Positions 8,234-45,041 of a stretch of 45,141 nt of DNA are shown one piece after another. The stretch is from Clostridiales bacterium. Lineage in GTDB: Bacteria > Bacillota > Clostridia > Lachnospirales > Lachnospiraceae. Where the stretch lies: assembly GCA_020859995.1 (NCBI GenBank), contig JAJBVE010000216.1, positions 1-45,141 of the forward strand, given 5' to 3'. Positions within the stretch are counted from its first letter, which is position 1. Each line of letters begins with the position of its first letter. Made by a program: the position numbers and the translations under genes. Under the pieces are notes generated by a model, which was not told the origin of the DNA, made no database searches, and was given only the letters and a program-made list of their open reading frames with translations.

Positions 8234-9784
8234 TTGCGAGAGCTGGAGATTTATATACATATTCCGTTTTGTGTGCGAAAATGCGGTTATTGTGATTTTA
8301 TGTCCGCTCCTGCAAAAAAAGAGCAGCGAGACCGTTATGTCCGGACATTACTGGAAGAAATCAGAAGCGGGGCACCGGCAAGTGCCCTGCTCTGTTTTTC
8401 GGCGCACAAGGACGGAAAGGAAAATTCTTTGCCTTACGGCGTGCCGGATCAGCAGGACTATGTTGTCACCAGCGTCTTTTTTGGCGGCGGGACTCCCTCT
8501 TTGCTTTTTGCATCGCAGATTGAGGAAATTATGGAGGCCCTGCGCGAGAGATTCTATTTTTCGGATCACGCGGAAATTACGATCGAGTGTAATCCAGGCA
8601 GCTTTCATCGGAGAATTGTCTGCGGCAAAGAAAACAGACTCATCGAAGAGAACAGCCCAGTCGAAGCGAACGGTTCCATCGAGGAGACGAAGGCCCAGCC
8701 GGAAAACCGAAGAAAAGAAGAGAAAACAGAGAGTGCAAAAAATGCGGACAAAGCAGAGGAAACGGATGTAGCGGAAAGGGCGAAGATGGAAGCATATCTT
8801 GCCTGCGGCATCAATCGCATCAGCTTTGGCTTGCAATCTGCGGATGACGCGGAGCTGGCGGCTCTTGGCAGAATTCATACGTTTGAAATGTTTCTGCGTT
8901 CTTACAATGCGGCGAGGGCAGCCGGTTTTACCAACATCAATGTAGATCTGATGTCCGCATTGCCGGGACAGAGTGTGGAGTCTTGGGAAAATACGCTGCG
9001 GAAGGTCCTGGCTCTTATCCCGGAGCATATCTCTGCGTATAGTCTGATCATCGAGGAAGGGACGCCGTTTTATGAAAAATATCATGAAGATGATCTGCTG
9101 CGATCAGACGGCGAGCCGCCACGGTTTCTCCCCTCGGAGGAAGACGAGCGGCAAATGACCCGGCTGACCGATCGAATACTTGGAGAAGCAGGGTATAACC
9201 ATTATGAAATTTCAAATTATGCCCTCCCGGGATTTGAGTGCCGCCACAACATTGGCTACTGGCGTGGCAGGGAGTACATGGGCTTTGGGCTGGGAGCCTC
9301 CTCTTTATTGAATCATGTCCGCTGCAAAAATCCAACCGGTCATGAGGAATATGAGAGACTGGTACGTTCACGAACGCATTTCGACACAGATGGTCTTGAT
9401 CCTGGAAAGGCAGCGTATTCCTCCTCGGTCAATGATATGGAAAGCAGTCAGTTTCTGTCTGATGATGAGAAAAGATACCGGCCTCCGTCTGACGACGATG
9501 AGGAAAAGTACCGGCCTCTGCCTGACGGTGATGAGGAAAGCTGTCAGCTTCTTTCTGTGAGGGATGAAATGTCCGAGTTTATGTTTCTGGGACTGCGGAT
9601 GCTCTCCGGCGTCTCAGAAGAGGAGTTTTTCACCCGCTTTGGCGTCCGGATTGATACGGTGTACAGTGAACCTCTGGAACGGCTGCAAGCTTTGGAATTA
9701 CTGCGGCGGGAGAACGGGCGCATCTTTCTGACACAGCGCGGCCTGGATCTGAGCAATCCGGTAATGGCGGAGTTTCTTCTATAG
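8234..9784 (+). CDS. hemW: HemW-like radical SAM protein with two low-complexity insertions
   Basis: This belongs to the HemN/HemW radical SAM family; HemW proteins are heme chaperones rather than true coproporphyrinogen oxidases. The SAM cluster motif is CVRKCGYC (Cys13, 17, 20), preceded by IYIHIPF. FFGGGTPSLL, ECNPGS, GINRISFGLQS, NVDLMSALPGQ and HYEISNYALPG follow in family order. I prefer the TTG at 8234, which has GGGAGGT 5 nt upstream; an ATG at 8195 has no ribosome site. The product is 516 residues, far above the usual ~380. Two insertions explain this: about 60 charged residues at 125-184, and an acidic tandem-repeat segment around 385-440. Both follow intact motifs, so the enzyme is probably functional. 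Confidence 0.92.
   Translation: MRELEIYIHIPFCVRKCGYCDFMSAPAKKEQRDRYVRTLLEEIRSGAPASALLCFSAHKDGKENSLPYGVPDQQDYVVTSVFFGGGTPSLLFASQIEEIMEALRERFYFSDHAEITIECNPGSFHRRIVCGKENRLIEENSPVEANGSIEETKAQPENRRKEEKTESAKNADKAEETDVAERAKMEAYLACGINRISFGLQSADDAELAALGRIHTFEMFLRSYNAARAAGFTNINVDLMSALPGQSVESWENTLRKVLALIPEHISAYSLIIEEGTPFYEKYHEDDLLRSDGEPPRFLPSEEDERQMTRLTDRILGEAGYNHYEISNYALPGFECRHNIGYWRGREYMGFGLGASSLLNHVRCKNPTGHEEYERLVRSRTHFDTDGLDPGKAAYSSSVNDMESSQFLSDDEKRYRPPSDDDEEKYRPLPDGDEESCQLLSVRDEMSEFMFLGLRMLSGVSEEEFFTRFGVRIDTVYSEPLERLQALELLRRENGRIFLTQRGLDLSNPVMAEFLL
9428..9553 (+). repeat. 30-33 bp tandem repeat inside hemW
   Basis: Four in-frame units begin at 9428, 9458, 9488 and 9521. Each encodes an acidic stretch followed by Tyr-Arg-Pro or a Cys/Ser-Gln-Leu/Phe-Leu end. 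The two middle units are nearly identical in DNA, and the outer two share their last 15 bases more closely with each other. Confidence 0.8.
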
Positions 9785-9798
9785 ATAATGAGGCGATG

Positions 9799-9844
9799 AA
9801 AAAAGGTCAGGAATTGGACACGTGCGTTCTGTTTCCTGACCTTT
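9799..9844 (-). terminator. Hairpin with minus-strand T-tail downstream of hemW
   Basis: A perfect 12-bp stem (9802-9813 with 9833-9844) surrounds a 19-nt loop. On the minus strand it ends in T6, while on the plus strand the tail is weak. It could end minus-strand transcripts crossing the palindromic block and may slow those leaving hemW. Confidence 0.5.
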
Positions 9845-9877
9845 CGTTCCTGATATTATCATAAAGTGAAAAAGCAA

Positions 9878-10093
9878 GTCAAATACCCCGATGCAAGCAT
9901 ACGGGGCATCAAATTTGTGGCGATGCAAGCATCGGGGTATTTGACCCTCGCGGCAGTCGCCAAATATCCGTGCAAGCACGGCTACTTGGCTCGTTGCTTC
10001 GCGGGAATAAAGCTGAAATGTATATTGCGAAAAAACGAATATAGCAAAAAGATTACTGCACGAACATTTTTCCCGCGAAGCAACAAGCCAAGT
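9878..10093. repeat. Composite palindromic block between hemW and the HAD gene
   Basis: This block fills most of the 347-bp gap and contains no gene. A perfect 17-bp inverted repeat pairs 9878-9894 with 9929-9945. Between and after its arms GATGCAAGCAT occurs at 9890-9900 and 9923-9932, and CCGTGCAAGCACGG (9968-9981) forms a further AA-loop hairpin. A second inverted repeat pairs 9984-10007 with 10070-10093 (23 of 24 bases). The one mismatch would be a G-U pair in minus-strand RNA but C-A in plus-strand RNA. A small hairpin (10021-10043) lies in its loop. It looks like an interspersed palindromic element or a structured 3' RNA. Confidence 0.65.
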
Positions 10094-10114
10094 CGGTATA
10101 TTGTTAGTATACTG

Positions 10115-10158
10115 AAAAAAGTGCCTGACCTTTACAGCAGGAGTTCCAGCTCACGCAC
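10115..10158 (-). terminator. Terminator overlapping the end of the HAD gene
   Basis: On the minus strand GTGCGTGA (10151-10158) pairs with TCAGGCAC (10121-10128) with one internal mismatch, followed directly by T6 (10115-10120). The upstream arm lies within the last codons of the gene. Confidence 0.5.
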
Positions 10159-10734
10159 GGCCTGCTCCTGGTTCTCAAAGATGATACCGTGAAATCCCAG
10201 TGCCAGTGACGCCTCGACATTCCACGGAGAGTCGTCCAGAAAGACAGATTCTTCCGGCACGACCTGCGGATAGTGTGCAAGGAATGTCTGAAAAATCTGG
10301 GGCTCCGGCTTGATAAGCCCCACCTCGCAGGAAAACAGTCCTCCATGCATCAGAGGAAGAAAATCCAGCGCTTCCTGCGTCCGATCAAGCATCCACTGGG
10401 AATAATTGGAAAGATAAAAGGTCGAAAATCCACGTGCCTGCAGAGAACGGATCCAGGGAATCGTGTAGTCTTTTTTGCTGATCGAAAGGTAGGACTGGTC
10501 AAATACGAGAGAGGCATCCTCCTGGTATGCAGGAGCAACGGATGCGATGATTTCCTCTCGGATCTGTTCGAATGATTTGATGCCGCGATCCAGATCCTGC
10601 CAGTGAGAACTGCCGAAAATGGCCTTGCTTAAATAAGTTTCTTTCTCCTCGTCAAACGCAAATTGCTTTATATAAATATCCGGGTCAAAACCGACTAGCA
10701 CTTTACCGATATCAAAAATAATTGTTTTTATCAT
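10132..10734 (-). CDS. HAD-superfamily phosphatase, YihX-like
   Basis: This is a 200-residue soluble hydrolase. HAD motif I is FDIGKVLV, the version seen in YihX-like sugar phosphatases, where the second Asp of the usual DxD is replaced by Gly. Motif II is the Ser in FYLSNYS, motif III the Lys in LIKPEPQIF, and motif IV VFLDDSPWNVEAS. The substrate is probably a small sugar phosphate, but the motifs do not decide this. The start has GAGGGAG 8-9 nt upstream. It lies 89 bp downstream of mgtE on the same strand with no separate promoter visible, so it may be expressed with mgtE. Confidence 0.92.
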   Translation of the reverse strand: MIKTIIFDIGKVLVGFDPDIYIKQFAFDEEKETYLSKAIFGSSHWQDLDRGIKSFEQIREEIIASVAPAYQEDASLVFDQSYLSISKKDYTIPWIRSLQARGFSTFYLSNYSQWMLDRTQEALDFLPLMHGGLFSCEVGLIKPEPQIFQTFLAHYPQVVPEESVFLDDSPWNVEASLALGFHGIIFENQEQAVRELELLL

Positions 10735-10823
10735 AACAGGTTTCTCCCTCGAAGTTCGAACCGTGTCGAAGCTATTTGAGTATCAGCCGGAGCAGGATGG
10801 ACCTGTCATGCTGCGACTGTTTC

Positions 10824-12215: not shown

Positions 12216-12278
12216 TTCCGATCCTCCTCCTTTGACGTCTATGCTGCCTTTTACGTATGGGAATGCCAGAAAGGCAAC

Positions 12279-15600: not shown

Positions 15601-15638
15601 GCAGATATTTGAGTAACATTGCCGGAGAAAAACAGAGA

Positions 15639-16934
15639 ATGAAACAGATCACAATTGAGGAATTGCAGCAAGGCAATCCTGCGGGAATCGTAATCGACAT
15701 CCGCAGGCAGGCAGACTATGACAAGGGAAGTTTTCCAGGTGCGGTGCATGCAGATGCATCTCAGATCAGAGCGGACAGCGGGATTCTGCCGATGGATCGG
15801 CCGATCTACTTTTTGTGTTACACCGGTGAGGAGAGCGATGAGCTTGCCTGCGAGATGGAAGAAAAAGGATTTGATGCGTACAGTGTCGCGGGCGGTTTTC
15901 ACAGCTACCTGCGGGTTCAGCTGCAGAAGGTGATGCGCGTTTCCGCAGGAGAAGCGAAAGACGAATTACCACAGGATAAAAAAGCCGAGGGAGAAATACA
16001 GGCTCAGGCATCGCTTAGCAGGGCGCGGGAAATCAATAACAGTCAAACCAATAACAGCCAAACCGGCAATGTACAGAGCGGAAATTTTCCATGTCGGAAC
16101 GCGGAACGCAGCATTATAAAAAAATTCCGCAGAGAGCTCTGGGGAAGATTTACGAAGGCGATCAAAGAATATGATATGATCCAGGATGGAGACCGGATTG
16201 CCGTCTGCATCTCCGGCGGGAAAGACTCGATGCTGATGGCGAAGCTTTTTCAGGAGTTGTATCGCCATGGAAAGAGAAACTTTGAACTGGTTTTTCTGGT
16301 GATGAATCCCGGCTATAATGAAAAAAATTACCAGCGAATCCTGGACAACGCCAGGATTCTGAATGTGCCGATTACGGTTTTTCATTCTGAAATCTTTGAC
16401 ATTGTCGCGTCGGAGGAAAACTCGCCATGCTATCTGTGTGCGAGGATGCGCAGAGGATATCTGTACAGCAAAGCGAAAGAACTGGGCTGTAATAAGATTG
16501 CGCTTGGACATCACTATGATGATGTGATTGAGACGATCCTGATGGGAATGCTCTATGGCGGGCAGGTGCAGACGATGATGCCGAAGCTATGCAGTGTCAA
16601 TTTTGAGGGAATGGAACTGATCCGGCCAATGTACCTGATCCGGGAAAAGGATATTATTCATTGGGCGAGCTACAACGACCTCCATTTTATTCAATGCGCG
16701 TGCCGGTTCACGGAGAACTGTGCTTCCTGCGGCGGTACGGAGAAGGGCTCCAAACGGGCAGAAGTGAAGCAGCTGATTTCATTGCTTGCTGAGCGCGATC
16801 CGGTCGTTGAAAGCAATATTTTTAAAAGTGTCGAAAATGTCAACCTGAATACGGTTATTGGCTGGAAACAGGATGGTGTGCGGCATCATTTTCTGGATAC
16901 CTACGCGATGGACAGCACAAAGTCCAGAGAATGA
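15639..16934 (+). CDS. Rhodanese-TtcA-like fusion (tRNA thiolation-type PP-loop protein)
   Basis: This 431-residue protein has two enzymatic parts. Residues 1-95 are a rhodanese domain: IVIDIRRQADYDKGSFPGA and the persulfide-loop Cys59 in LCYTGEES, then VAGGFHSYL. A polar linker of about 55 residues (103-156, Asn/Gln/Ser-rich) follows. Residues about 160-431 are a TtcA-type adenylating domain with the PP-loop SGGKDS (about 191), CYLCARMRRG (about 264), LGHHYDDVIET and a late Cys cluster CACRFTENCASCGG. TtcA enzymes bind an Fe-S cluster and add sulfur to cytidine 32 of tRNA. The rhodanese could pass the sulfur within one chain. The start is the ATG at 15639; its ribosome site is weak (GGAG, 12 nt away), fitting translation coupled to the upstream gene. 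Confidence 0.9.
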   Translation: MKQITIEELQQGNPAGIVIDIRRQADYDKGSFPGAVHADASQIRADSGILPMDRPIYFLCYTGEESDELACEMEEKGFDAYSVAGGFHSYLRVQLQKVMRVSAGEAKDELPQDKKAEGEIQAQASLSRAREINNSQTNNSQTGNVQSGNFPCRNAERSIIKKFRRELWGRFTKAIKEYDMIQDGDRIAVCISGGKDSMLMAKLFQELYRHGKRNFELVFLVMNPGYNEKNYQRILDNARILNVPITVFHSEIFDIVASEENSPCYLCARMRRGYLYSKAKELGCNKIALGHHYDDVIETILMGMLYGGQVQTMMPKLCSVNFEGMELIRPMYLIREKDIIHWASYNDLHFIQCACRFTENCASCGGTEKGSKRAEVKQLISLLAERDPVVESNIFKSVENVNLNTVIGWKQDGVRHHFLDTYAMDSTKSRE

Positions 16935-21839: not shown

Positions 21840-22547
21840 ATGTCAAAAAAACAAGCTAAGAATGATGTATATAAAAAACGAAGAAGTCCTTTCCTGATTG
21901 TTTTATACGTTATTGTTTTACTTGCTCTGATTGGCTGTATTGGATACTTTTTTTACAGTTCCATGCTTCGCCAGTCAGATTATGAAGATATCGTTCGCCA
22001 GGCTTCTCTTAACGAGACGGAAATGATAATTACACGTATCGAAGAAGAGAGCGAAACAGAGTCCGAGACTGAGACGGAAACAGAGGCTGTGACAGAGACA
22101 GAAGCTGTGACTGAGCCGGAATCAGAAAGCGGCACCGAGACTGAGGCAGAAACAGACAGCGCAGCAGAGCAGGAGACGGAAGAAGCTGGTCAGACTCAGG
22201 CAAGTTCTTACGCACCGGTTCTCACAGTATCCGCCAACAGTGAGGTGATCACAGCCGGAGATTCTTTTGATCCGGTATCCTATGTGGAGTCCATTACGGA
22301 CGATGTGGATAATATGTACACCCTCTGGAGAAATATCAATGTGGAAGGGGATTACGATGTCGAAGTCCCGGGTGTGTATGAACTTACGATTTATGCGGTC
22401 GATTCTTCCGGATATGTTTCAAACAAAGAATCCTTTATTCTGGTAGTGCTGGAACCGGAAACGGAAACAGCCTCTGAAACAGCCTCTGAGACAGAGTCTG
22501 AAACAGAGTCCGAGACGGAGTCTGAAGCAGAGCCTGACGCGGTTTGA
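21840..22547 (+). CDS. Membrane-anchored acidic repeat protein with an Ig-like domain
   Basis: This is a 235-residue protein of unknown function. A basic N-terminus (KKQAKNDVYKKRR) precedes one membrane helix (about 18-39, FLIVLYVIVLLALIGCIGYFF), so the rest is predicted to face outward. Next comes a Glu/Thr/Ser repeat stretch (about 66-118, units like ETESETETE), then a domain of about 80 residues (APVLTVSANSEVITAGDSF ... VEVPGVYELTIYAVDSSGYV) resembling surface Ig-like/DUF5011 modules, and a second acidic repeat tail to the end. There is no sortase signal. GGGGAAGG is the ribosome site. Its place between the kinase and LCP genes suggests an envelope role. Confidence 0.87.
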   Translation: MSKKQAKNDVYKKRRSPFLIVLYVIVLLALIGCIGYFFYSSMLRQSDYEDIVRQASLNETEMIITRIEEESETESETETETEAVTETEAVTEPESESGTETEAETDSAAEQETEEAGQTQASSYAPVLTVSANSEVITAGDSFDPVSYVESITDDVDNMYTLWRNINVEGDYDVEVPGVYELTIYAVDSSGYVSNKESFILVVLEPETETASETASETESETESETESEAEPDAV

Positions 22548-28688: not shown

Positions 28689-28735
28689 TAAGAAAGAGTG
28701 GCACAAAACAGATCAGAATGCGTAAGGAGGACTTT

Positions 28736-30469
28736 ATGGCGTTGAAAACATTCGCAGCGGTCAGCATTGGCTCTGCCGTGACTGAAATGAAGATTTTTGA
28801 GTATACACAAAAGCGGGCCATGCGGGAGATTGAGTGTGTTTCTACCCGTATTAATCTGGGACTGGATGTGTATGAGCAGGGACGTATCAGCCGGGAGCAT
28901 GTGGACGAGCTCTGCGCGGTGCTGAATGATTTCAAACGCACGATGTCCGGCTACCGGGTGGATGCTTATCGCGTATTCGCGACGAGTGCTTTCCGGGAGT
29001 CGCGCAACAAAACATTTCTCTGCGATTACATTGAAAAACAGACTGGACTGGACATTGACGTATTTACAAACTCAGAGCAGAGATTTGTGGATTACCAGGC
29101 GATTGCTTCCGTGTCGGCGGAATTTGAGAGTATCATCGCGAACGAGACAGCGATTGTCGATATCAGCGGCAGCAGCACGCAGATCTCTCTGTTTGATAAA
29201 GATAAGCTGATCACGACCCAGAATATCCGCGTTGGGAATATTACGACGCGGGAAAACCTGCTTCCCATCTCGAAAAACGGGGAGCATTTTGAAAGGCTGA
29301 TCCGTGAACTGATGAATTATGAGCTGGCCAGTTTCACAAAGCTTTACCAGAAAGACCGCAAAATCCGCAATCTGATTGTCTTAGGCGGAGGCTTAAGCGA
29401 GATGCTTTCAATGAAGGAACAGGAAGAAATCCAGGACCTGCTGCGTAAAAGGAAGCTGGATATTTCTCAAACAGCCGCACTTTCTAAAAACGAGTCCTCA
29501 TCCAAAGAAGCGGATGCGCCAGCGCTGGATCCCTCTAAAATGGAGGAGTCCATACAGCATGCCGATTCCGCGGCAAAAGCGCGAAGACAGATCAAAGATA
29601 CGGACGGAAAGAAAATTCATTCTTTATCAAAGGAACAATACGAGATTATTTATCGATATATGATAGCGCATACACCGGATGAAATCGCGAAAAAATATCA
29701 GCTGCCATCGGACATGACGGATGCGATTATTCCGTCCGCGGTAATCTGCCGCAGCCTGATTGAGAATTTTGATGTAGACGTTGTATGGATGCCGGGATTT
29801 TCCCTGAACGACGGAGTCGCGTATGATTACGGCGTGAGGATGGGGCTTCTTACAAGACGTCACAGCTTTGACGAGGATATTCTTGCGGCGGCCCGCAGCA
29901 TTTCCAAACGCTACAAGACCAGCCAGGCACATATTCGGAATATCGGCGATATTGCGGTGGAAATTTTTGACCGTATGAAAAAAGTACACGGCCTGGGAGG
30001 GCGGGAACGTCTGCTTTTACAGATTGCAGTGATATTGCACAGCTGCGGCAAATTTATCAGCCTGACGGATGTCTCGGAGTGCGCGTATAATATCATTCTG
30101 GCTACAGAAATCATCGGTCTCTCTCAGGAAGAACGCTCGATTGTGGCCTATACAGTCAAATATAACACGAGCCGCTTTATCTATTATGATGAACTGGAGA
30201 CCAGGACCGATCTGGATGAAAAGGAATATATGATTGTGGCCAAGCTGACGGCGATTCTGCGGATCGCGAATTCACTCGACCGCACGCATCAGCAAAAGTG
30301 CAGCAGCGTGACGGTGACCCTTAAAGAGCATGAATTACGGATTTCCGTGGCAAGTCAGGCAGATCTTTCTCTGGAGAGAGGAGCCTTCGATGAAAAGGTG
30401 GACTTTTTTGAGGAAGTATTCAACGTGCGCCCGGTGCTGAAGCAAAAGAAGTTTGTGGGCGCTTTGTAA
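28736..30469 (+). CDS. PPX/GppA-family exopolyphosphatase with altered motifs
   Basis: This 577-residue protein belongs to the ASKHA fold. The first nucleotide-type motif is AAVSIGSAVTEMKIFEY, followed by YRVDAYRVFATSAFRES and VDISGSSTQISLF. The last motif is usually DIGGGST; here it is DISGSST (from Asp142). A low-complexity stretch of about 50 residues (244-293) precedes the C-terminal HD-like domain, whose His-Asp/Glu pair reads His435-Ser436 (HSCGKF). The ATG at 28736 has AAGGAGG 5 nt upstream. ppk1 starts 29 bp after its stop, so a role in polyphosphate turnover is likely. The altered motifs could mean a changed activity. Confidence 0.88.
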   Translation: MALKTFAAVSIGSAVTEMKIFEYTQKRAMREIECVSTRINLGLDVYEQGRISREHVDELCAVLNDFKRTMSGYRVDAYRVFATSAFRESRNKTFLCDYIEKQTGLDIDVFTNSEQRFVDYQAIASVSAEFESIIANETAIVDISGSSTQISLFDKDKLITTQNIRVGNITTRENLLPISKNGEHFERLIRELMNYELASFTKLYQKDRKIRNLIVLGGGLSEMLSMKEQEEIQDLLRKRKLDISQTAALSKNESSSKEADAPALDPSKMEESIQHADSAAKARRQIKDTDGKKIHSLSKEQYEIIYRYMIAHTPDEIAKKYQLPSDMTDAIIPSAVICRSLIENFDVDVVWMPGFSLNDGVAYDYGVRMGLLTRRHSFDEDILAAARSISKRYKTSQAHIRNIGDIAVEIFDRMKKVHGLGGRERLLLQIAVILHSCGKFISLTDVSECAYNIILATEIIGLSQEERSIVAYTVKYNTSRFIYYDELETRTDLDEKEYMIVAKLTAILRIANSLDRTHQQKCSSVTVTLKEHELRISVASQADLSLERGAFDEKVDFFEEVFNVRPVLKQKKFVGAL

Positions 30470-30498
30470 ATAACGTAATCGGGAGAGAGGTGCGAAAA

Positions 30499-32847
30499 AT
30501 GGCGAATACGGGATTTGATAAACCGGAATATTTTACTAACAGAGAATTAAGCTGGCTGAGCTTTAATGAGAGAGTGCTTTCGGAGGCACGGGACAAATCG
30601 ATTCCGCTGATGGAGCGGCTGAAATTTTTGAGCATCACGGCGTCTAATCTGGATGAGTTTTTTATGATTCGTGTCGCGTCGCTCAAAGACATGGTTCATG
30701 CGAAATATACCAAAAAGGATATTTCCGGGATGACCGCGAATGAACAGCTGGAGATGATTTCCCGGGAAGCGCATGAATTGGTAAAGCAGCAGTATTCGAC
30801 CTATAACCGTTCTTTGCTTTCTCTGATGAAGCAGCATGGGCTGGAGGTCGTGACCGGGCATGAGAAGCTGACAAAAGAGCAGGCCGAGGCGGCGGACCGA
30901 TATTTCGAAGAGAACGTATACCCGGTGCTGACGCCGATGGCCCTGGATTCCTCACGTCCATTTCCGCTGATCCGCAACAAGGCCTTGAATATCGGCGCCC
31001 TGATTTCCAGAAAAGACGAGAAAGACGCGGACGCGGCAAAGACGGAAACTGAGCAGAAAGAAGAAGCTTTGCCAAAATCCGGAAAAGAGGAAATCGTGTC
31101 CAAACAGGATAAAACGGAGAAGAGCGCGAAAACAGAAAAAACCGATAAAATGGAGAAAACAGCAAAAGCAGATAAAGCGGACAAAGGTGCAAAAGGCGAA
31201 AAGGCGCTCAAACCGGGAAAGATGCATATCGAGTTTGCCACCGTGCAGGTGCCTTCCGTGCTGCCGCGCATTGTGCGGCTGCCGGACGCGGAAGATGGGA
31301 CGAAATGTGTGATTCTTCTGGAAGAGCTGATCGAGCGGAACATTGATAAGCTGTTTTCCAACTATCATGTGGTCTGCGCGCATCCTTACCGGATTATGAG
31401 AAACGCGGACCTGACCATTGATGAGGATGACGCGTCTGATCTTCTGAAGGAAATCCAGAAGCAGCTGAAGAAACGCCAGTGGGGCGAGGTGATCCGTCTG
31501 GAAATTGAGGAAAGTATGGATCCGCGGCTGCTGAAAATCCTGAAACAGGAGCTGGATGTGAAAAACGATGATATTTATAAGATCAGCGGCCCGTTGGATC
31601 TGACGTTTCTGATGAAGCTGTATGGGATTGAGGGAATGGATGCCTATAAGCAGAAGCCTTATCTGCCGCAGCCGGTCCCCGGAATGAATGATGTGGAAGA
31701 CATTTTCACTCAGATCCGCAAGGGGGATATTTTCCTGCATCACCCGTATATGACCTTTGACCCGGTTGTGCAGCTGGTAAAGCAGGCGGCGGCAGACCCG
31801 GATGTGCTCGCGATCAAGCAGACATTGTACCGCATCAGCGGCAATTCGCCCATTGTCATTGCGCTCGCGCAGGCCGCGGAGAATGGAAAACAGGTGTCTG
31901 TGCTGGTGGAGCTGAAAGCCCGTTTCGACGAGGAGAACAACATTAACTGGGCGAAAATGCTGGAAAAGGCGGGCTGTCACGTGATCTATGGCCTGCATGG
32001 CCTGAAGACGCATTGCAAGATTACGCTGGTGGTGCGCCGCGAGGAAGACGGCATTCGCAGGTATGTGCATCTGGGAACGGGAAATTATAACGATTCGACC
32101 GCGAAACAATATACAGACTGCGGCATCATGACCTGCCAGGAAGCATTCGGCGAGGACGCGACGGCTGTTTTCAACATGCTTTCCGGTTATTCAGAGCCAA
32201 AGCACTGGAACCGCCTTTCCCTGGCGCCGATCTGGATGCGTGACCGGTTTATGTATTTGATTGAGCGCGAGACGCAGCACGCGAAAAACGGTCTTCCTGC
32301 CCGCATTATCGCGAAGATGAATTCTCTGTGTGACAAGGAGATCATTGAGGCACTTTATGAGGCGTCGGCAGCGGGTGTGCAGATCGACCTGATCATTCGT
32401 GGGATCTGCTGCCTGAAAACCGGGATTCCGGGCGTCAGCGAGACCATCCATGTGCGTTCTCTCGTAGGTACCTTTTTGGAGCACGCGCGTATTTTCTATT
32501 TCCTGAATGATGAGAATGAGGAATTCTATATGGCGAGCGCGGACTGGATGCCGCGTAATCTGGACAAGCGTGTGGAGATTCTTTTTCCGGTGGAGGATCC
32601 CGCGATCCGGGAGCGGGTGCGCCATATTCTGCAGATCCAGCTGGACGACAATGTGAAGGCGCAGGTGCTTAAGCCGGACGGGACTTATGAAAAGATTGAC
32701 CGCCGCGGCAAAGAGCGTCTCTGCGCGCAGGAGTATTTCTGTGAGCAGGCCGTCCGCGAGGCTCGTGAGGCCAAAAAGGCAGATGAAGAGGCTTCGGATC
32801 CGGTAAAGACCAGACGGTTTGTGCCGGCTGGGTCGGAAGGGGAGTAA
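30499..32847 (+). CDS. ppk1: Polyphosphate kinase 1 with a Lys-rich insertion
   Basis: This 782-residue enzyme moves the terminal phosphate of ATP onto polyphosphate chains, reversibly. The N-terminal domain starts YFTNRELSWLSFNERVL. The catalytic core shows TLYRISGNSPIVIAL, VELKARFDEENNINW, the autophosphorylated-type His505 in GLKTHCK, HLGTGNYNDSTAKQYTD, and a second active-site His662 in HARIFYF. Between residues 171 and 241 is an insertion of Lys, Glu, Asp, Thr and Ala with TEK/ADK-like units. It lies inside the otherwise conserved early head domain, between IGALISRK and MHIEFATVQVPSVLPR. The length exceeds the usual ~690-720. GAGAGGTG is the ribosome site. Confidence 0.96.
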   Translation: MANTGFDKPEYFTNRELSWLSFNERVLSEARDKSIPLMERLKFLSITASNLDEFFMIRVASLKDMVHAKYTKKDISGMTANEQLEMISREAHELVKQQYSTYNRSLLSLMKQHGLEVVTGHEKLTKEQAEAADRYFEENVYPVLTPMALDSSRPFPLIRNKALNIGALISRKDEKDADAAKTETEQKEEALPKSGKEEIVSKQDKTEKSAKTEKTDKMEKTAKADKADKGAKGEKALKPGKMHIEFATVQVPSVLPRIVRLPDAEDGTKCVILLEELIERNIDKLFSNYHVVCAHPYRIMRNADLTIDEDDASDLLKEIQKQLKKRQWGEVIRLEIEESMDPRLLKILKQELDVKNDDIYKISGPLDLTFLMKLYGIEGMDAYKQKPYLPQPVPGMNDVEDIFTQIRKGDIFLHHPYMTFDPVVQLVKQAAADPDVLAIKQTLYRISGNSPIVIALAQAAENGKQVSVLVELKARFDEENNINWAKMLEKAGCHVIYGLHGLKTHCKITLVVRREEDGIRRYVHLGTGNYNDSTAKQYTDCGIMTCQEAFGEDATAVFNMLSGYSEPKHWNRLSLAPIWMRDRFMYLIERETQHAKNGLPARIIAKMNSLCDKEIIEALYEASAAGVQIDLIIRGICCLKTGIPGVSETIHVRSLVGTFLEHARIFYFLNDENEEFYMASADWMPRNLDKRVEILFPVEDPAIRERVRHILQIQLDDNVKAQVLKPDGTYEKIDRRGKERLCAQEYFCEQAVREAREAKKADEEASDPVKTRRFVPAGSEGE

Positions 32848-34202: not shown

Positions 34203-37200
34203 ATGAGTAAATTATTTACCGAAGTATTTCCGACCCTGGAGGTCAGTGACCCTCTGGAGGGCCTTTTGGAATACGTGACAGTCGATCGCGTCGCGATGAA
34301 CCAGCGGCGCGATTTCATGCATGTATACATTGCCAGTGATCGGCTGATTTACAAAAAATATGTACTGGAACTGGAAAAGGCGATCAAGGAGCAGCTGTTT
34401 TCAGAAGCGTATCTGATGATCAAGGTGATTGAGAAATTTCACCTCTCAAGACAGTATACACCCAAACGGCTGATGCCGCTTTATGAAGAGAGTATCGCGC
34501 TGGAGCTGAAGGAATACAATGCCCTGCTTTACAGTTTGTTTCGGCAGGCAGACAAAGAATTTACCGATGAAAACACGCTGCTTTTGCAGATTCCGGATTC
34601 TGTGGTCGCGGATGGGAAAGAACAGGAGCTTTTGGAAATTCTCGAAAAAATTTTCTGCGAGCGCTGCGGGCTGGATTTTCATGTGAGCGCCGAGCGGACG
34701 AAGCCGCTCAAGAGCCGTCATTCGGAGCAGACTGCTTACGAGCTGGAGCAGGAGATCGAGATGATTTCCAGAAATTATGCCAGAGTGAAACAGGGCGGCG
34801 GGATGGAGCCGGATGCTTCAGGCCATGAGAATGTTTCAGACTCGGATGCCGGTTATTCAAAGAGAAGCACAGGAGCAGATGCCGCGCTGCAGCCGATTTA
34901 CGGCGGCGCGGAAGAAACCTTCCAGGGAGGAGTTACTGGCGCGGACGATCATTTTTCCGGTTCGCGCGGAGGCGCTAAGGGAAGCTTTCAAGGTAGTGAA
35001 GATACTAGCGGTGGCACGAATGGTTCCGGCGTTAAGAGTGTATCTAAAAGCGGAGATAAAGGCAGCCGAAACGACGGCGCCGTAAAGGATGGCATTTTGA
35101 ATGGAAAGAGTGCTGTCTCCGCAAATGGCGAGGGTTCCAGAAAAGGAAGTTCATTATCAAACGGTGGAGGCTTTGACGCAGGCGGGCAGGCAAATGCCGG
35201 CCGGGGATTTCAAAAGAGAAGAACCTCTTCCGACTGGTATGGCGGCTCCAGAAAATCAGACAATCCGGATGTCCTTTACGGAAGAGATTTCGAGGGAGAG
35301 CCGCTGGCGATTGAAAAAATTACCGGCGAGATCGGCGGCGTGATTCTGCGTGGGCAGGTGCTTTCTGCAGAGCAGAGAGAACTGCGGATTGCAAAGATTT
35401 TGTTTATTTTTACCATCACAGATTTTACGGATACCATCAGCGTGAAAATGTTTCTGCAAAAGGAAGAAGCCCAGGAGGTGGCGGACGCTGTCAAGGTGGG
35501 AGCGTTCATAAGCCTGAAGGGCGTGACCACGATCGACCGGTTTGACAGCCAGCTGACGATCGGCAATGTGCAGGGCATCAAAAAAATTGCGGATTTCCGG
35601 GAAAAAAGGCTGGATATGGCGGTTAAAAAGCGCGTGGAGCTGCACTGCCACACCAAGATGAGCGATATGGACGGTGTCTCGGACGTGAAGGATATTATCG
35701 CGCGGGCGATCAGCTGGGGACAGAAGGCGATCGCAATCACCGATCATGGCGATGTGCAGGCCTTCCCGGACGCGAACCATGCCATCCCTAAGGACAGTGA
35801 TTTTAAGGTGATCTATGGGGTGGAAGGCTACCTGGTAGATGACCTGAAAGAAATTGCGGTCAATGAGAAGGGGCAGGAGCTAGGGGCGGATTTTGTGGTC
35901 TTCGACCTGGAGACGACCGGATTTTCCCCACAGGATAACCGCATCATCGAGATTGGCGCGGTGAAGGTGCAGGGAGGGAAAATTACCGATAAATTCAGCA
36001 CATTTGTCAATCCGCAGGTGCCGATTCCGTTTCGGATTGAAGAGCTTACCAGCATCAACGACAGTATGGTGATGGACGCGCCGACCATCGAGAAGATTCT
36101 GCCGGAGTTTATGGAATTTTGCTCCGGTTGTGTGATGGTGGCGCACAACGCTTCCTTTGATATGAGCTTTATCGAAGAAAACTGCGCCAGGCTGGGGATT
36201 CCGTGCGACAAAACCTCCGTGGATACGGTCGCGATGGCGCGTGTCCTGCTGCCGGCGCTGAATCGGTTTAAGCTGGATACGGTGGCCAAAGCGGTGGGCG
36301 TTTCGCTGGCGCATCACCACCGTGCGGTGGATGACGCAGGCTGTACGGCGGAGATTTTTGAAAAATTTCTGGTGATGCTGAACAAACAGGGGATTACGAC
36401 ACTTGCGCAGCTGAATGCCCTGGGGCATTCTTCGAAGGATCAGATTAAAAAGCTGCCGACTTACCATGTGATCATCCTGGCAGCGAATGAGGTGGGGCGG
36501 ACAAACCTTTACCGTCTGGTGTCCTGGTCGCATATTGACTACTATAACCGTCATCCACGGATTCCCAAAAGCGTCCTGCAAAAATACCGCGAAGGACTTC
36601 TGATCGGCTCTGCCTGCGAAGCCGGAGAGCTGTACCGGGCGCTGGTGCGGGGAGCGTCCGCGCCGGAGATCGCGCGCCTGGTGGAGTTTTATGATTATCT
36701 GGAAATCCAGCCGCTCGGCAATAATATGTTTATGACCAGGGACGACGCGGAAGATAAAAAGACAGTTGAAGATCTGCAGAATTACAACCGCCGGATTGTG
36801 GAGCTGGGCGAGCAGTACCATAAGCCTGTGGTGGCGACCTGCGATGTCCATTTTCTGGATCCGCAGGATGAGATTTACCGCCGCATTATCATGGGCAGCC
36901 GCGGATTTAAGGATGCGGATGAACAGGCTCCGCTCTACCTGCGCACGACGGAGGAGATGCTGAAGGAATTCACCTATCTGGGTGAGGAGAAGGCCTACGA
37001 GGTCGTTGTCACCAACACCAACCGCATTGCGGACATGTGCGAGCGCATTTCCCCGGTGCGCCCGGATAAATGTCCGCCGGTCATCGAGAATTCGGATCAG
37101 ATTCTGCGGAACCTCTGCTACGAAAAGGCGCATGAGATTTATGGGGAGGAGCTGCCGCCGATTGTCTCGGAACGGCTCGAGCGGGAGCTGCACTCCATCA

Positions 37201-38966
37201 TCTCCAACGGCTTCGCCGTGATGTATATCATCGCCCAGAAGCTGGTGTGGAAGTCCAACGCGGATGGCTATCTGGTCGGCTCGCGGGGATCGGTAGGATC
37301 CTCCTTTGTCGCGACGATGTCCGGTATCACGGAGGTGAATCCCTTAAGTCCTCACTATATCTGTCCGAACTGTCATTACAGTGATTTTGATTCGGAGGAT
37401 GTCAGGAAATTCGCGGGGATGGCCGGCTGCGACATGCCGGATAAGATCTGTCCGAAGTGCGGCACAAAATTAAATAAGGAAGGATTTGATATCCCATTTG
37501 AAACCTTCCTTGGGTTTAAGGGAAACAAGGAGCCGGATATCGACCTGAACTTTTCGGGTGAGTATCAGAGTAAGGCGCATAAGTATACGGAGGTTATTTT
37601 CGGCGCGGGGCAGACCTATCGCGCCGGGACGATCGGCACTCTGGCGGACAAGACGGCCTTCGGTTATGTGAAGAATTATTACGAGGACCGCAACATCCAT
37701 AAACGAAACTGTGAGATCGACCGGATTGTGCAGGGGTGCGTGGGCGTGCGGCGCACCACGGGGCAGCATCCGGGCGGCATCATTGTGCTGCCGATCGGGG
37801 AGGAAATCTATTCCTTTACCCCGGTGCAGCATCCGGCGAACGACATGACCACGGATATCGTGACGACGCATTTTGATTATCATTCCATCGACCACAACCT
37901 GCTCAAGCTGGACATCCTCGGACACGATGATCCGACGATGATCCGTATGCTCCAGGACCTGACCGGCCTGGATCCGAAGGAGATTCCGCTGGATGATCCG
38001 CAGGTAATGTCTCTGTTTACCAGCACGGAAGCCCTCGGCATCACGCCGGAGGACATCGGCGGCGTGCCTTTAGGCTCTCTTGGCATCCCGGAGTTCGGCA
38101 CGGAATTTGCCATGCAGATGCTGATTGATACCAAGCCGACGCATTTTTCCGACCTGGTGCGGATCGCGGGACTGGCCCACGGTACCGACGTGTGGCTGGG
38201 GAACGCGCAGACCCTGATCCAGGAGGGAAAGGCGACCATTTCCACCGCCATCTGTACCCGTGACGACATCATGATCTACCTGATCGGCAAGGGACTGGAC
38301 AGTGAGCTTTCCTTTACCATCATGGAGAGCGTCCGCAAGGGCAAGGGGCTGAAGCCGGAGTGGGAGACGGAAATGATCGCGCATGACGTGCCGGACTGGT
38401 ACATCTGGTCCTGCAAGAAGATCAAATACATGTTCCCGAAGGCACATGCGGCCGCCTATGTCATGATGGCCTGGAGGATCGCTTACTGCAAGATCAATTA
38501 TCCGCAGGCCTATTACGCGGCCTATTTCAGCATCCGTGCGTCAGGCTTTGACTATGAGCTGATGTGCCTGGGCAAGGAAAAGCTGCTTTACCATATGGCG
38601 GATTATGAAAAACGGATGGATTCGCTCAGCAAGAAGGAACAGGATACTTATAAAGATATGAAGAGCGTATTGGAGATGTATGCGAGGGGCCTGAACTTTG
38701 TGCCGATTGATATTTACAAGGCACAGGCGACCCGATTCCAGATCGTCGGGAATGATCTGATGCCTTCTTTGAACTCCATTTCCGGTCTGGGAGAAAAGGC
38801 GGCCGCTTCTATCGTAGATGCCTGCAAGGACGGGCCGTTTTTGTCGAAGGACGACTTCATGACGCGCGCCAAGGTCGGGAAGACCATGACAGATCTGCTG
38901 GCGGACCTGAAAATACTCGATGGGCTGCCGGAGACAAATCAGCTGTCGCTGTTTGATGTTATTTGA
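34203..38966 (+). CDS. polC: DNA polymerase III, PolC type
   Basis: This is the 1587-residue replicative polymerase of low-GC Gram-positives. Domains in order: N-terminal domain (1-195); a Gly/Ser-rich low-complexity stretch (about 198-355); OB-type segment (GGVILRGQVL, then DTISVKMFLQKEE, about 380-460); PHP domain start VELHCHTKMSDMDGVSD (about 478) and AIAITDHGDVQAF; the inserted DEDD proofreading exonuclease with VVFDLETTGF (about 565), HNASFDMSF and HHRAVDDAGCT; then the polymerase, with GSRGSVGSSFVA, a four-Cys zinc site (CPNC...CPKCG, about 1055-1085) and the catalytic PDIDLNFSGEYQ (about 1112). The usual length is ~1440; the linker accounts for the excess. GGGGAG is the ribosome site. 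Confidence 0.97.
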   Translation: MSKLFTEVFPTLEVSDPLEGLLEYVTVDRVAMNQRRDFMHVYIASDRLIYKKYVLELEKAIKEQLFSEAYLMIKVIEKFHLSRQYTPKRLMPLYEESIALELKEYNALLYSLFRQADKEFTDENTLLLQIPDSVVADGKEQELLEILEKIFCERCGLDFHVSAERTKPLKSRHSEQTAYELEQEIEMISRNYARVKQGGGMEPDASGHENVSDSDAGYSKRSTGADAALQPIYGGAEETFQGGVTGADDHFSGSRGGAKGSFQGSEDTSGGTNGSGVKSVSKSGDKGSRNDGAVKDGILNGKSAVSANGEGSRKGSSLSNGGGFDAGGQANAGRGFQKRRTSSDWYGGSRKSDNPDVLYGRDFEGEPLAIEKITGEIGGVILRGQVLSAEQRELRIAKILFIFTITDFTDTISVKMFLQKEEAQEVADAVKVGAFISLKGVTTIDRFDSQLTIGNVQGIKKIADFREKRLDMAVKKRVELHCHTKMSDMDGVSDVKDIIARAISWGQKAIAITDHGDVQAFPDANHAIPKDSDFKVIYGVEGYLVDDLKEIAVNEKGQELGADFVVFDLETTGFSPQDNRIIEIGAVKVQGGKITDKFSTFVNPQVPIPFRIEELTSINDSMVMDAPTIEKILPEFMEFCSGCVMVAHNASFDMSFIEENCARLGIPCDKTSVDTVAMARVLLPALNRFKLDTVAKAVGVSLAHHHRAVDDAGCTAEIFEKFLVMLNKQGITTLAQLNALGHSSKDQIKKLPTYHVIILAANEVGRTNLYRLVSWSHIDYYNRHPRIPKSVLQKYREGLLIGSACEAGELYRALVRGASAPEIARLVEFYDYLEIQPLGNNMFMTRDDAEDKKTVEDLQNYNRRIVELGEQYHKPVVATCDVHFLDPQDEIYRRIIMGSRGFKDADEQAPLYLRTTEEMLKEFTYLGEEKAYEVVVTNTNRIADMCERISPVRPDKCPPVIENSDQILRNLCYEKAHEIYGEELPPIVSERLERELHSIISNGFAVMYIIAQKLVWKSNADGYLVGSRGSVGSSFVATMSGITEVNPLSPHYICPNCHYSDFDSEDVRKFAGMAGCDMPDKICPKCGTKLNKEGFDIPFETFLGFKGNKEPDIDLNFSGEYQSKAHKYTEVIFGAGQTYRAGTIGTLADKTAFGYVKNYYEDRNIHKRNCEIDRIVQGCVGVRRTTGQHPGGIIVLPIGEEIYSFTPVQHPANDMTTDIVTTHFDYHSIDHNLLKLDILGHDDPTMIRMLQDLTGLDPKEIPLDDPQVMSLFTSTEALGITPEDIGGVPLGSLGIPEFGTEFAMQMLIDTKPTHFSDLVRIAGLAHGTDVWLGNAQTLIQEGKATISTAICTRDDIMIYLIGKGLDSELSFTIMESVRKGKGLKPEWETEMIAHDVPDWYIWSCKKIKYMFPKAHAAAYVMMAWRIAYCKINYPQAYYAAYFSIRASGFDYELMCLGKEKLLYHMADYEKRMDSLSKKEQDTYKDMKSVLEMYARGLNFVPIDIYKAQATRFQIVGNDLMPSLNSISGLGEKAAASIVDACKDGPFLSKDDFMTRAKVGKTMTDLLADLKILDGLPETNQLSLFDVI

Positions 38967-40953: not shown

Positions 40954-40992
40954 GAAAAATGTACTCCCTTCTTGAAAATCACACCGTTCCCC

Positions 40993-41021: not shown

Positions 41022-41056
41022 ATATATAAAGAAAATAATGATTATTCTTTTAGAAT
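41012..41056. promoter_or_regulatory. Palindromes in the MATE/LysR divergent region
   Basis: TATATTT-C-AAATATA (41012-41026) overlaps the -35 box of the MATE promoter. ATTCT-TTT-AGAAT (41044-41056) lies just before a TATAAA (41061-41066) that may serve the LysR gene. Both are plausible LysR-type binding sites. Confidence 0.5.
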
Positions 41057-41105
41057 ATGATATAAAAAGAGAGTGAATGAAAAAGCGTTCACAAGGGGAT
41101 TGAGG

Positions 41106-42095: not shown

Positions 42096-42188
42096 CAACA
42101 TGACAGGATCTTTTCCGAAATGTGCGCGAATCAGGATGGAGGATGAAAATTGAGACAGACATTTCAATATTTGTTATTCGAAAGTCTA

Positions 42189-42217
42189 TTGCATCAGACA
42201 GCGCGGCGGGTTATAAT
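42189..42217 (+). promoter_or_regulatory. Promoter upstream of the BspA-like gene
   Basis: TTGCAT (42189-42194), a 17-bp spacer and TATAAT (42212-42217), ending 44 bp before the ATG at 42262. Confidence 0.7.
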
Positions 42218-42261
42218 AACGACAGTTTCGCGATTCTTTTGTCAGAGCATGAAAAGGGAAA

Positions 42262-43353
42262 ATGTATGATTACTCGCTAGAAGGGTTTGAAGATACGGAT
42301 ATAAACCCATGGAGGAGCGCGGGGCTTGAGGTAAAATCCGTCGTAATTGAAAATGGAGTGACCAGTATAGGGGACTGCGCCTTCGAAGAACTGGGAATTG
42401 AGAGCGTCACGATGCCGGACAGTGTCACTTCGATCGGCCTGATGGCATTTGCCTTCGCCAATATGAAAACCATCGATCTCTCTGACGGTCTGACTGAGAT
42501 CGATAATTCTGCCTTTTATTCGTGCCAGAATTTAACGGAGATCACGATTCCTTCCGGCGTGAAAACGTTAAGCGGGTGCCTGTTTCTCTACTGCAACTCG
42601 CTGAAAACAATCACTATTCCTGCAAGCGTGACCAGCATAGAAGCCAACGCATTTGGCAGCTGCTATAACCTGAAGGATGTATATTACGCAGGCTCCTCCG
42701 CTTCCTGGGCGGCAATCAATATTTCTGATGAGGGCAATTCGGCGCTTACAGGTGCCACGATCCACTATAATATGTCTGAGGAGAAGGTGGCTCTGTCCGC
42801 ATGCAAGATATCCAGCCTGAAGAATACCGCGAAGGGGATTACCCTGAAGTGGAACACTGTTTCCGCGGCGGATGGATATTATATTTACCGAAAGACCAGT
42901 TCGGGCAGCTACAGCCGGATTAAGACAATCAAGAGCTCTTCCACAGTGAGCTATACAGATACGAAGGTCGCGAATAAGAACGGGACGACCTACATATACA
43001 AGGTGGTTCCTTACGCTGGAAGTGTCAAAGGCACTGTCTCAGGAAAAACGGTGGTTCGTCTGACCGGGGCCACTCTTTCCAGTGTAAAGAATTCTGCCTC
43101 CGGCAAGGCAAAGGTAAAGTGGACAGCGGTTACGAAAGTATCCGGCTATCAGATTCAGTATTCCAAAAGCAAAACATTCGCGAGCGGCAACAAGACAAAG
43201 AAGGTGTCCGGCGCGTCGAGCGTAAGCGTATCTTTAAGCAGTCTTACGAAGGGAAAGACCTACTATGTGAGGATTCGCACCTACAAGACCGTTAATGGTA
43301 CGAACTATTACAGCGCGTGGAGCAGCGTAAAAAAGGTGAAAATCGCGAAATAA
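42262..43353 (+). CDS. BspA-like leucine-rich repeat protein without a signal peptide
   Basis: This 363-residue protein has LRR_5/BspA-type repeats at about 25-150 (VIENGVTSIGDCAF, VTMPDSVTSIGLMAF, ITIPSGVKTLSGCLF, ITIPASVTSIEANAFG). Two fibronectin III-like modules follow (about 170-260 and 265-363; WNTVSAADGYYIYRKTSSG and WTAVTKVSGYQIQYSKS). Such proteins are normally secreted and bind host or matrix. This one has no signal peptide: it begins at the short MYDYS...NPW segment that usually follows a signal and a strand-rich lead-in. A stop codon lies four codons upstream in frame. It may be a 5'-truncated remnant, though a promoter and AGGGAA site precede it. Confidence 0.8.
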   Translation: MYDYSLEGFEDTDINPWRSAGLEVKSVVIENGVTSIGDCAFEELGIESVTMPDSVTSIGLMAFAFANMKTIDLSDGLTEIDNSAFYSCQNLTEITIPSGVKTLSGCLFLYCNSLKTITIPASVTSIEANAFGSCYNLKDVYYAGSSASWAAINISDEGNSALTGATIHYNMSEEKVALSACKISSLKNTAKGITLKWNTVSAADGYYIYRKTSSGSYSRIKTIKSSSTVSYTDTKVANKNGTTYIYKVVPYAGSVKGTVSGKTVVRLTGATLSSVKNSASGKAKVKWTAVTKVSGYQIQYSKSKTFASGNKTKKVSGASSVSVSLSSLTKGKTYYVRIRTYKTVNGTNYYSAWSSVKKVKIAK

Positions 43354-43439
43354 CGCAAAACATAAAGAACGCAAACATAAAGAGCGAAAAGCATAAAGAA
43401 TGAGAAACATTAAGAAACTGACAAAGGATGGCGAAGAGA

Positions 43440-45041
43440 ATGACTAAAAAGAAGAATGCATGGAGCACATACACGAAAGAGCAGCTGGAGGAACTGGAGA
43501 CACTTTCCGAAAATTACCGGGCATTTTTGGATGCCGGTAAGACGGAGCGTGAGTGCGTGACCGAGATCACCAGGATTGCGCAGGAAAATGGCTATCGCAG
43601 TCTGGACGAAGTGCGTCAGTCGGGCAGTTCTCTGCAGCCCGGGGACAAGGTCTATGCGTCTGGCATGGAAAAAACAATCGCCTTGTTTGTCATTGGGAAA
43701 CAACCGCTGGAAGCCGGAATGCGGATCCTTGGAGCACACATTGATTCCCCGCGTCTGGATGTCAAACAGGATCCTCTTTATGAAGATACGGAGCTGGCTT
43801 ATCTCGACACCCATTATTATGGCGGGATAAAAAAGTATCAGTGGGTGACTGTCCCGCTTGCTCTCCACGGAGTAGTGGTCAAAAAGGACGGTACCCGGGT
43901 GCCTGTGTGCATAGGCGAGGATGACGGCGATCCGGTGCTGTTTGTTTCCGACCTGCTGGTGCATCTGGCTGGAGAGCAGATGCAGAAAAAAGCCAGCGTA
44001 GTCATTGAAGGTGAAAATCTGGACATCCTCGTTGGGAGTCGGCCGATTTTGAAAGCGGAAAAAGAGACAAATAAGGATTCCATGGGTTCGGCTAAATGTG
44101 AGGCTAAATGTGAAGCTTCCGCAACGGCTGAAGCGACGGAAAAATCAAATGACGGAACAGCCAAAAGCGATATGTCAGGTGCCGATAAGTCTGAGGCTGC
44201 GGCAATGAAAGATCCAGCAGCAGGAAAGAATGTGCCGGACGCTGAGAAAAAAGAAGCCGCCGAGGATAAGAAGGCAGAAAAGGAGGCCGTGAAGCAGCAT
44301 ATTCTCGCCATCCTCCGGGATAAATACGGGATGGAAGAGGAGGATTTCCTCTCTGCAGAGCTGGAGGCAGTACCGGCAGCGAAGGCGAGAGACTGCGGCC
44401 TTGACCGCAGCATGATCATGGCCTACGGACAGGATGACCGTGTCTGTGCATACACTTCGCTGGCGGCGCTTTTGGATACTCCGGCCCAGGATTACACCTG
44501 CTGCTGTCTGCTGGTGGACAAGGAAGAAATCGGGAGCGTCGGGGCGACCGGCATGCAGTCCCGCTTCTTTGAGAATACCGTCGCGGAGCTGATGGACTGC
44601 ATGGGGCAGTACAGCGAGCTCACGCTGCGCCGCGCCTTAAGCCATTGCCGGATGCTGTCATCAGATGTGAGCGCCGCATACGATCCGCTGTATGCCAGCT
44701 GCTTTGACAAGAAAAACAGTGCTTTCTTTGGAGGCGGACTGGTGCTGAATAAATACACCGGCTCCCGCGGAAAAGGCGGCAGCAATGACGCGAACGCAGA
44801 ATATATCGCATCTGTCCGTGCTTTGCTGGATAAATATGAAGTCCTGTTCCAGAATGCGGAAATTGGCAAGGTCGATGTCGGCGGAGGCGGAACAATCGCC
44901 TACATAGCCGCGCTCTATGGCATGGAGGTCATTGACAGCGGTGTGGCAGTCATGAATATGCACGCGCCGATGGAAGTCACAAGCAAGGCGGATGTATATG
45001 AGGCTTTGAGAGGATACCGGGCATTTCTCGCGGAAGCATAA
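43440..45041 (+). CDS. M18-family aminopeptidase with a low-complexity insertion
   Basis: This is a metallo-aminopeptidase of 533 residues, likely cytoplasmic with two zinc ions. Motifs: GAHIDSPRLD (His100 and Asp102), LDTHYYGGIKKYQW, the DKEEIGSVGATGM catalytic segment (Glu362, Glu363), SSDVSAAYDP (Asp ligand) and NMHAPMEVTSKADVYE (last His ligand). Residues 206-283 are a low-complexity stretch of Ala, Glu, Lys, Asp and Ser between GSRPILKAEKE and KQHILAILRDKYG, where relatives have a short link. I prefer the ATG at 43440, for which AAGGA lies 11 nt upstream; the ATG at 43428 is too close to that site. The next gene starts 36 bp later. Confidence 0.92.
   Translation: MTKKKNAWSTYTKEQLEELETLSENYRAFLDAGKTERECVTEITRIAQENGYRSLDEVRQSGSSLQPGDKVYASGMEKTIALFVIGKQPLEAGMRILGAHIDSPRLDVKQDPLYEDTELAYLDTHYYGGIKKYQWVTVPLALHGVVVKKDGTRVPVCIGEDDGDPVLFVSDLLVHLAGEQMQKKASVVIEGENLDILVGSRPILKAEKETNKDSMGSAKCEAKCEASATAEATEKSNDGTAKSDMSGADKSEAAAMKDPAAGKNVPDAEKKEAAEDKKAEKEAVKQHILAILRDKYGMEEEDFLSAELEAVPAAKARDCGLDRSMIMAYGQDDRVCAYTSLAALLDTPAQDYTCCCLLVDKEEIGSVGATGMQSRFFENTVAELMDCMGQYSELTLRRALSHCRMLSSDVSAAYDPLYASCFDKKNSAFFGGGLVLNKYTGSRGKGGSNDANAEYIASVRALLDKYEVLFQNAEIGKVDVGGGGTIAYIAALYGMEVIDSGVAVMNMHAPMEVTSKADVYEALRGYRAFLAEA

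Follow-up and report, generated by a model that had tools for sequence, protein, structure and literature searches.

Low-complexity inserts in six conserved proteins of a Lachnospiraceae genome and their turnover among relatives

Six conserved proteins with low-complexity inserts

The window, the whole stretch of DNA that we analysed, is 45,141 nucleotides long and represents a complete contig (C229) of a 239-contig, 4.40-Mb Lachnospiraceae genome (G000) with a guanine plus cytosine (GC) content of about 49%. A sequence-only reading had proposed that six conserved enzymes encoded here carry low-complexity insertions. These six proteins are a selection out of the 30 predicted genes in the window. 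The inserts were borne out in all six, with sizes of 47 to 158 residues, and alignment to relatives placed them within about 50 bases of the positions first assigned. The six genes and their inserts are all on the forward strand.

The HemW-type radical SAM protein (8195..9784, 529 residues) scores above the cut-off of the TIGR00539 equivalog model, and its translation carries the CX3CX2C motif as CVRKCGYC. Its first insert (8603..8773, 57 residues) is rich in Glu, Lys and Ala, lies within the radical SAM domain directly after the IECNPG strand and contains an internal repeat of 18 base pairs (bp). The second insert (9359..9541, 61 residues) is rich in Asp and Ser and contains a 33-bp repeat. 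Pairwise alignment to a genome of the same genus, G017, revealed a small additional insert of 17 residues (8387..8437). The fusion of a rhodanese domain with a TtcA-like PP-loop domain (15609..16934, 441 residues; PF00581, PF01171) scores under the cut-off of the TtcA model. Its insert is the linker between the two domains (15957..16097), with 47 residues, or 55 by other anchors, and a 15-bp repeat.

The Ppx/GppA-family protein (PPX; 28730..30469, 579 residues; PF02541, PF21447) scores 113.9 against the NCBIfam exopolyphosphatase model, far below its cut-off of 307. Alignment to relatives revealed a 65-residue insert (29414..29608) within the Ppx-GppA domain. The common Ppx motif is DIGGGSTE. 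The motif reads DISGSSTQ in this protein, and six relatives from the clade defined below have DISGSSTQ or DLSGSSTQ. Polyphosphate kinase 1 (PPK1; 30490..32847, 785 residues; NF003920 above cut-off) has an insert of 67 residues (31024..31224; 18 Lys, 10 Ala, 10 Glu), also found by alignment to relatives, with a 27-bp repeat. It sits between the equivalents of residues 174 and 179 of 2o8r, within the middle domain.

PolC (34203..38966, 1587 residues) scores above the cut-offs of NF001688 and TIGR01405. The linker that joins its N-terminal domain to the OB fold (34779..35252 by alignment to relatives) has 158 residues, 37 of them Gly and 24 Ser. The M18 aminopeptidase (43428..45041, 537 residues; NF002600 above cut-off) has an insert of 69 residues (44052..44258 by alignment to relatives; 16 Ala, 12 Lys, 9 Glu) at the position of residue 208 of 2glj. 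Residues His104, Asp168, Glu366, Glu367, Asp413 and His512, which we take to be likely metal-site residues, are invariant across 26 M18 sequences. Just upstream of the M18 gene is an AT-rich tandem array with periods of 16 and 31 bp (43348-43416).

The compositions agree with those first described: rich in Lys and Glu in PPK1, in Gly and Ser in PolC and in Ala, Lys and Glu in M18, and acidic in the second HemW insert, with a net charge of -9. The placement at junctions or loops held in part, as PPK1, PPX and M18 carry their inserts within a domain and not at a domain boundary. Hydrophobic residues make up 14% of the inserts versus 36% of the remainder of the six proteins. The M18 insert is predicted to be disordered. 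In a model of M18, the only protein modelled, residues 217-269 have a predicted local distance difference test (pLDDT) score below 50 and are mostly coil; the model is of moderate quality, with a mean pLDDT of 67.8, and was built from a shallow alignment. Hydrophilic composition together with low pLDDT in the M18 model is what would be expected of disordered linkers.

Insert lengths among relatives

Relatives were searched in 24 genomes of the same genus (G001-G024) and 16 of the same order. Segment lengths were taken from MAFFT alignments, with narrow anchors first and then with wide anchors, which give the safer count; in several genomes, among them G012 and G023, the narrow anchors miss long segments just 5' of the second HemW site. 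A tree was built from five of the proteins, using alignment columns occupied in over 80% of the sequences, and was printed without support values. It groups G000 with G001, G008, G010, G013, G014, G015 and G021, and we refer to this group as the clade.

With wide anchors, the segments of this genome exceed the medians of genus members outside the clade by 45 to 90 residues. The lengths are 73 residues versus a median of 17 at the first HemW site (n=17, +56), 91 versus 46 at the second (n=17, +45), 87 versus 27 in PPX (n=15, +60), 89 versus 23 in PPK1 (n=16, +66), 201 versus 110.5 in PolC (n=14, about +90) and 93 versus 29.5 in M18 (n=16, about +63). The TtcA-like linker was scored in 9 of 29 fetched relatives, those with a frame of at least 360 residues and both domains in frame, and measures 12 to 43 residues there versus 55 here. 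In other families, wide anchors gave 17 residues at the first HemW site (five scored), 36-42 at the second (five), 28-29 in PPX (four), 19-30 in PPK1 (four) and 20-22 in M18 (four). PolC has 56-68 residues in five of six such genomes, and the sixth, at 214, is apparently misaligned.

The narrow-anchor counts show which of these sites are short in relatives, as had been claimed for all of them. At the first HemW site, a single residue is found in 25 of the 28 scored relatives, five from other families; two have 8 residues and G001 has 49. The PPX segment is 7 residues in all 15 scored genus members outside the clade, 7 to 104 in seven clade members and 67 here, and the PPK1 segment is 5 to 30 residues in 16 genus members outside the clade versus 71 here. 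PolC is long in relatives too, and the second HemW site varies genus-wide, which leaves both only partly special to this genome. The PolC linker spans 51-147 residues across 21 scored genus relatives versus 165 here, and 20-32 in five of six scored genomes of other families, the sixth being apparently misaligned (the row of G031, at 178 residues, appears to be misaligned with its OB fold included). At the second HemW site, wide anchors gave 37-171 residues across the genus, and 5 of the 24 genus members exceed this genome. The longest segment there, 171 residues versus 91 here, is in G012 (contig C11, L076), which is outside the clade. M18 segments range from 2 to 66 residues across 23 other genus members with narrow anchors; five M18 rows from other families could not be scored in that alignment.

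We also collected 80 named loci around ppk1, mostly from Lachnospiraceae; a peptide pattern of the PPK1 insert itself served to find part of them, which makes the sample lean towards lysine-rich relatives. The median length at the PPX site is 6 residues among 76 scored loci, with three as long or longer than here; the PPK1 site has a median of 6 among 80, with none as long; and the PolC site has a median of 99 among 17, with one longer. Among 14 window genes compared with close relatives, the median largest insertion is at least 30 residues in four (HemW, PPX, PPK1 and PolC), and four others, named from sequence as LeuS, PheA, IspG and YqeG-like, have no insertions. M18 had one comparison protein there and the TtcA-like protein two, so both were judged by the other alignments.

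Lineage dependence, which the sequence-only reading had also suggested, was supported: segments are longer in the clade at four sites, and at two others they vary genus-wide. With wide anchors and with our own genome excluded, the seven other clade members have longer segments than the remaining genus members at the first HemW site (six scored, p<0.0001), in PPX (p=0.0001), in PPK1 (p=0.0015) and in PolC (p=0.0013), all p-values ignoring shared ancestry. A clade difference at the second HemW site from narrow anchors (p=0.0007) was dropped, since wide anchors give p=0.096. Open frames of MutS2-like proteins, labelled so by length and a partial match to a MutS1 model, are 860-999 residues in the eight clade members versus 795-857 in 14 other genus members for which a complete frame is listed; G003, G019 and G023 have none or a partial frame.

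Repeats, divergence and reach beyond the window

Four of the seven inserts in this genome contain direct DNA repeats beyond the expectation from 200 codon shuffles, at offsets of 18, 33, 15 and 27 bp; among 38 control stretches, four reached p≤0.05 and one about 0.01. Inserts of at least 25 residues in relatives gave a similar picture, with repeats in 18 of 48 at p≤0.05 and 12 of 48 at 0.01, versus 1 and 0 of 48 controls; the genomes that supplied these 48 inserts are related, so the inserts are not independent. Each of the 18 offsets is a multiple of 3 bp. This excess of repeats at in-frame offsets points to in-frame tandem duplication, and the repeat slippage proposed earlier is supported for a good part of the inserts, not for all. 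Seven inserts were compared with each other and with a 533-kb genome sample, and no shared DNA was found except for two short weak matches.

The inserts change quickly. In the nearest sister, G041 (reached through L182), the PPX, PPK1 and PolC segments are 91, 51 and 177 residues versus 67, 71 and 165 here, and the remainder of these proteins is 96-97% identical, or 83% in HemW. The rate of nonsynonymous substitution (dN) in this comparison is 0.455 in the inserts versus 0.028 in the rest, about 16-fold, and its ratio to the synonymous rate (dN/dS) is 0.31 versus 0.05; the insert dS of 1.46 is near saturation and the insert alignment is uncertain. Two further sister pairs gave 0.23 for inserts versus 0.03 for the rest, and 0.16 versus 0.02. 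In 44 of 48 inserts of relatives, third-position GC is lower than in the remainder of the gene, as would be expected for young or weakly selected sequence.

The effect extends past the window but is moderate. Between ortholog pairs of G000 and G017, we found 17 internal insertions of at least 12 residues in 9 of 34 genes here and none in G017; outside the window the count is 10 to 0, in 5 of 25 pairs. A control pair in which neither genome belongs to the clade, G018 and G017, gave 6 to 1 in 31 pairs. In a random sample, proteins were entered if they matched an NCBIfam model above cut-off (20 of 50 in G000, 22 of 40 in G017; the rest were dropped), and excess was how far the aligned span of the protein exceeded the span covered in the best such model. 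By this measure, 8 of 20 proteins here have an excess of at least 12 residues versus 3 of 22 in G017 (Fisher p=0.08, rank p=0.11), with mean excesses of 16 and 5 residues; the excess of phosphofructokinase may stem from model choice. Two sampled proteins from outside the window were measured as length minus model length, HemL at +42 and ThiM at +125 residues. The HemL insert is absent from 19 of 20 matched genus members, where the two halves abut, and is shorter in G001; four members gave no match. Other long proteins outside the window are ArgD (+54) and ThiD (+42) by length minus model length, and RecD2 (+49) and PepT (+23) by aligned span, all among ten chosen by eye from the list of a hydrophilic-window scan that is not specific.

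A composition scan of the proteome found no excess over genus genomes outside the clade (64/205 versus 94/351, p=0.28), and an excess over another family (13/93, p=0.0016) whose GC fraction is 0.35 versus 0.49. SEG content is 6.9% here, 5.8% in G017 and G018 and 4.9% in G025, and is uninformative about a lineage excess. The genome-wide tendency first proposed is thus modestly supported. Longer proteins do occur outside the window, but the unbiased tests are weak, and the window is probably a stretch rich in inserts.

Origin of the inserts

The reading that we consider reasonably probable is that in-frame duplications are tolerated at surface loops and linkers under weak selection, most strongly in the clade. 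In what is probably a Parablautia-like genus of Lachnospiraceae, a minority of conserved proteins would go on acquiring in-frame DNA in their surface loops and inter-domain linkers, through tandem duplication or slippage of short units whose length is a multiple of 3 bp, as the repeats in a good part of the inserts show. The dN and dN/dS values show that the new DNA diverges quickly under weak protein-level selection, so that old repeats would blur into low-complexity, hydrophilic sequence that is predicted to be disordered; length does rise and fall between sister species. The conserved cores stay conserved, and most insert growth is therefore probably tolerated or close to neutral. Gains may exceed losses in the clade through weaker selection, a duplication bias or a mild benefit.

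Several results weigh against this reading. The length of the segments in this genome was the reason for choosing the sites, so its rank partly reflects that selection and is inflated. The own PPX, PolC and M18 inserts have no significant repeats (p=0.63, 0.30 and 0.085). An insert dN/dS of 0.31 is below 1 and does not indicate free drift, within the limits of dS and alignment given above. Insertions are nearly balanced within the clade, at 6 to 5 between G000 and G014 (29 pairs) and 7 to 5 between G000 and G013 (24 pairs). Outside the window, only 1 of 20 pairs without a predicted membrane segment has insertions, versus 2 of 22 in the control pair, and SEG content in six other clade samples is 3.6-6.8%, not consistently above the 5.8% outside the clade. 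Composition is site-specific across genomes, with a cosine of 0.84 at the same site versus 0.72 between sites (none of 200 permutations was as high), which could reflect selection or shared descent. Wide anchors show no clade specificity at the second HemW site, as given above, or in M18 (p=0.20). MutL is longest outside the clade, at 943 residues in G024 (open frame on contig C52, 279766-281907), 782 in G012 and 777 in G018, versus 710 here. Linker growth thus also occurs outside the clade and is a genus-wide habit, stronger at several sites in this clade.

The alternative that survives best, though we think it unlikely, is that the segments are adaptive, with disordered linkers selected as interaction or condensate regions or as solubility or tether modules. 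It would account for an insert dN/dS below 1, for the composition kept at each site and for long M18 segments in separate lineages, such as G003, G007 and G012. Yet sister species differ fast in length and sequence, compositions are unlike between sites, the inserts have almost no DNA in common, and 12 of the 20 sampled conserved proteins have no excess of at least 12 residues. On the hubs for interaction or condensation once suggested for these inserts, the sequence gave nothing for or against beyond rapid divergence and site-specific composition.

Loss of mismatch repair could raise slippage, and the mutS1 gene of the window genome is indeed split by a frame change. The two parts of the gene lie in different frames, with a stop where they meet (contig C39, about 1271-1284, L373), and the adjacent mutL is open. 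In the clade member G008, whose genome is 98% complete, we found no mutS1 above cut-off and no mutL, and the mutS1 of G014 has one TGA within the matched stretch. G041, G001, G010, G013, G015 and G021, however, have mutS1 above cut-off without a stop in the matched stretch and still carry long inserts at some sites, and the split in G000 may be recent or an assembly error. The open mutS1 genes of these expanded relatives largely refute mismatch-repair loss as the root cause, and we regard it as very improbable. The same low standing applies to the idea that the segments are old linkers lost by other lineages. In keeping with that idea, the whole genus has a long PolC linker, but the medians of 6 residues for PPX and PPK1 among loci mostly from Lachnospiraceae, and the single residue at the first HemW site in nearly all scored relatives, other families included, speak against it, as do the short states mostly seen at deep outgroups.

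Selfish mobile palindromes, inteins or untranslated bypass elements would explain insertions inside several unrelated enzymes, and the inserts resemble Rickettsia palindromic elements, of which the available text of PMC6649704 makes mention, in being in-frame insertions in bacterial protein-coding genes. Unlike those elements, the inserts have no common repeated sequence, the two short weak matches being the sole candidates for one DNA repeated across genes. A conserved element sequence, as inteins or bypass elements would leave, was likewise not seen among the inserts, with no intein-model search made. Insert lengths vary continuously, and the codon signal is in frame, with a mean of 0.18 per codon versus -0.09 and -0.14 in the other two frames, although it is near zero for the TtcA-like linker and weak for the PolC linker. 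We give this explanation next to no credence. That errors in assembly or gene calling in a fragmented genome produced the inserts, as the 239 contigs and the mutS1 frame split might suggest, is hardly credible with the same sites and flanks in many separate assemblies and the best PPK1 and PolC matches in same-genus genomes free of stops.

Beyond the tolerated in-frame duplications that we favour, a lineage-wide and genome-wide inflation of disordered linkers in housekeeping enzymes, a bacterial counterpart of the condition in Plasmodium, is a tentative and rather doubtful extension; a change in duplication rate, in selection strength or in the demand for disorder could drive such a shift, on the same tentative footing. 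Plasmodium falciparum proteins carry low-complexity insertions and, like the genes here, have low-complexity segments within coding sequences, those of enzymes included, according to the available text of PMC11260460. Unlike P. falciparum, this bacterium has about 49% GC and inserts of Lys, Glu, Ala, Gly and Ser, with no extreme A+T bias. Many bacterial proteins contain low-complexity regions, and DNA slippage is among the sources named (PMC6821194, PMC12695832). In contrast to those prokaryotic surveys, whose available text stresses conserved regions, the inserts here differ between sister species. Among the literature matches listed, there is no prior report of such linker inflation.

Closely related bacteria with several-fold variation in linker length around conserved enzyme cores represent a natural experiment, which could separate neutral growth from usefulness of disordered linkers and show what sets insertion tolerance. 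In such genomes, annotation can be misled by protein length and by domain matches that are split. Elsewhere in the window, between 20212 and 24737, consecutive genes resemble the Wzz, CpsD and LytR families as judged by translation alone, and a Glu/Thr/Ser repeat protein is encoded among them at 21840-22547.

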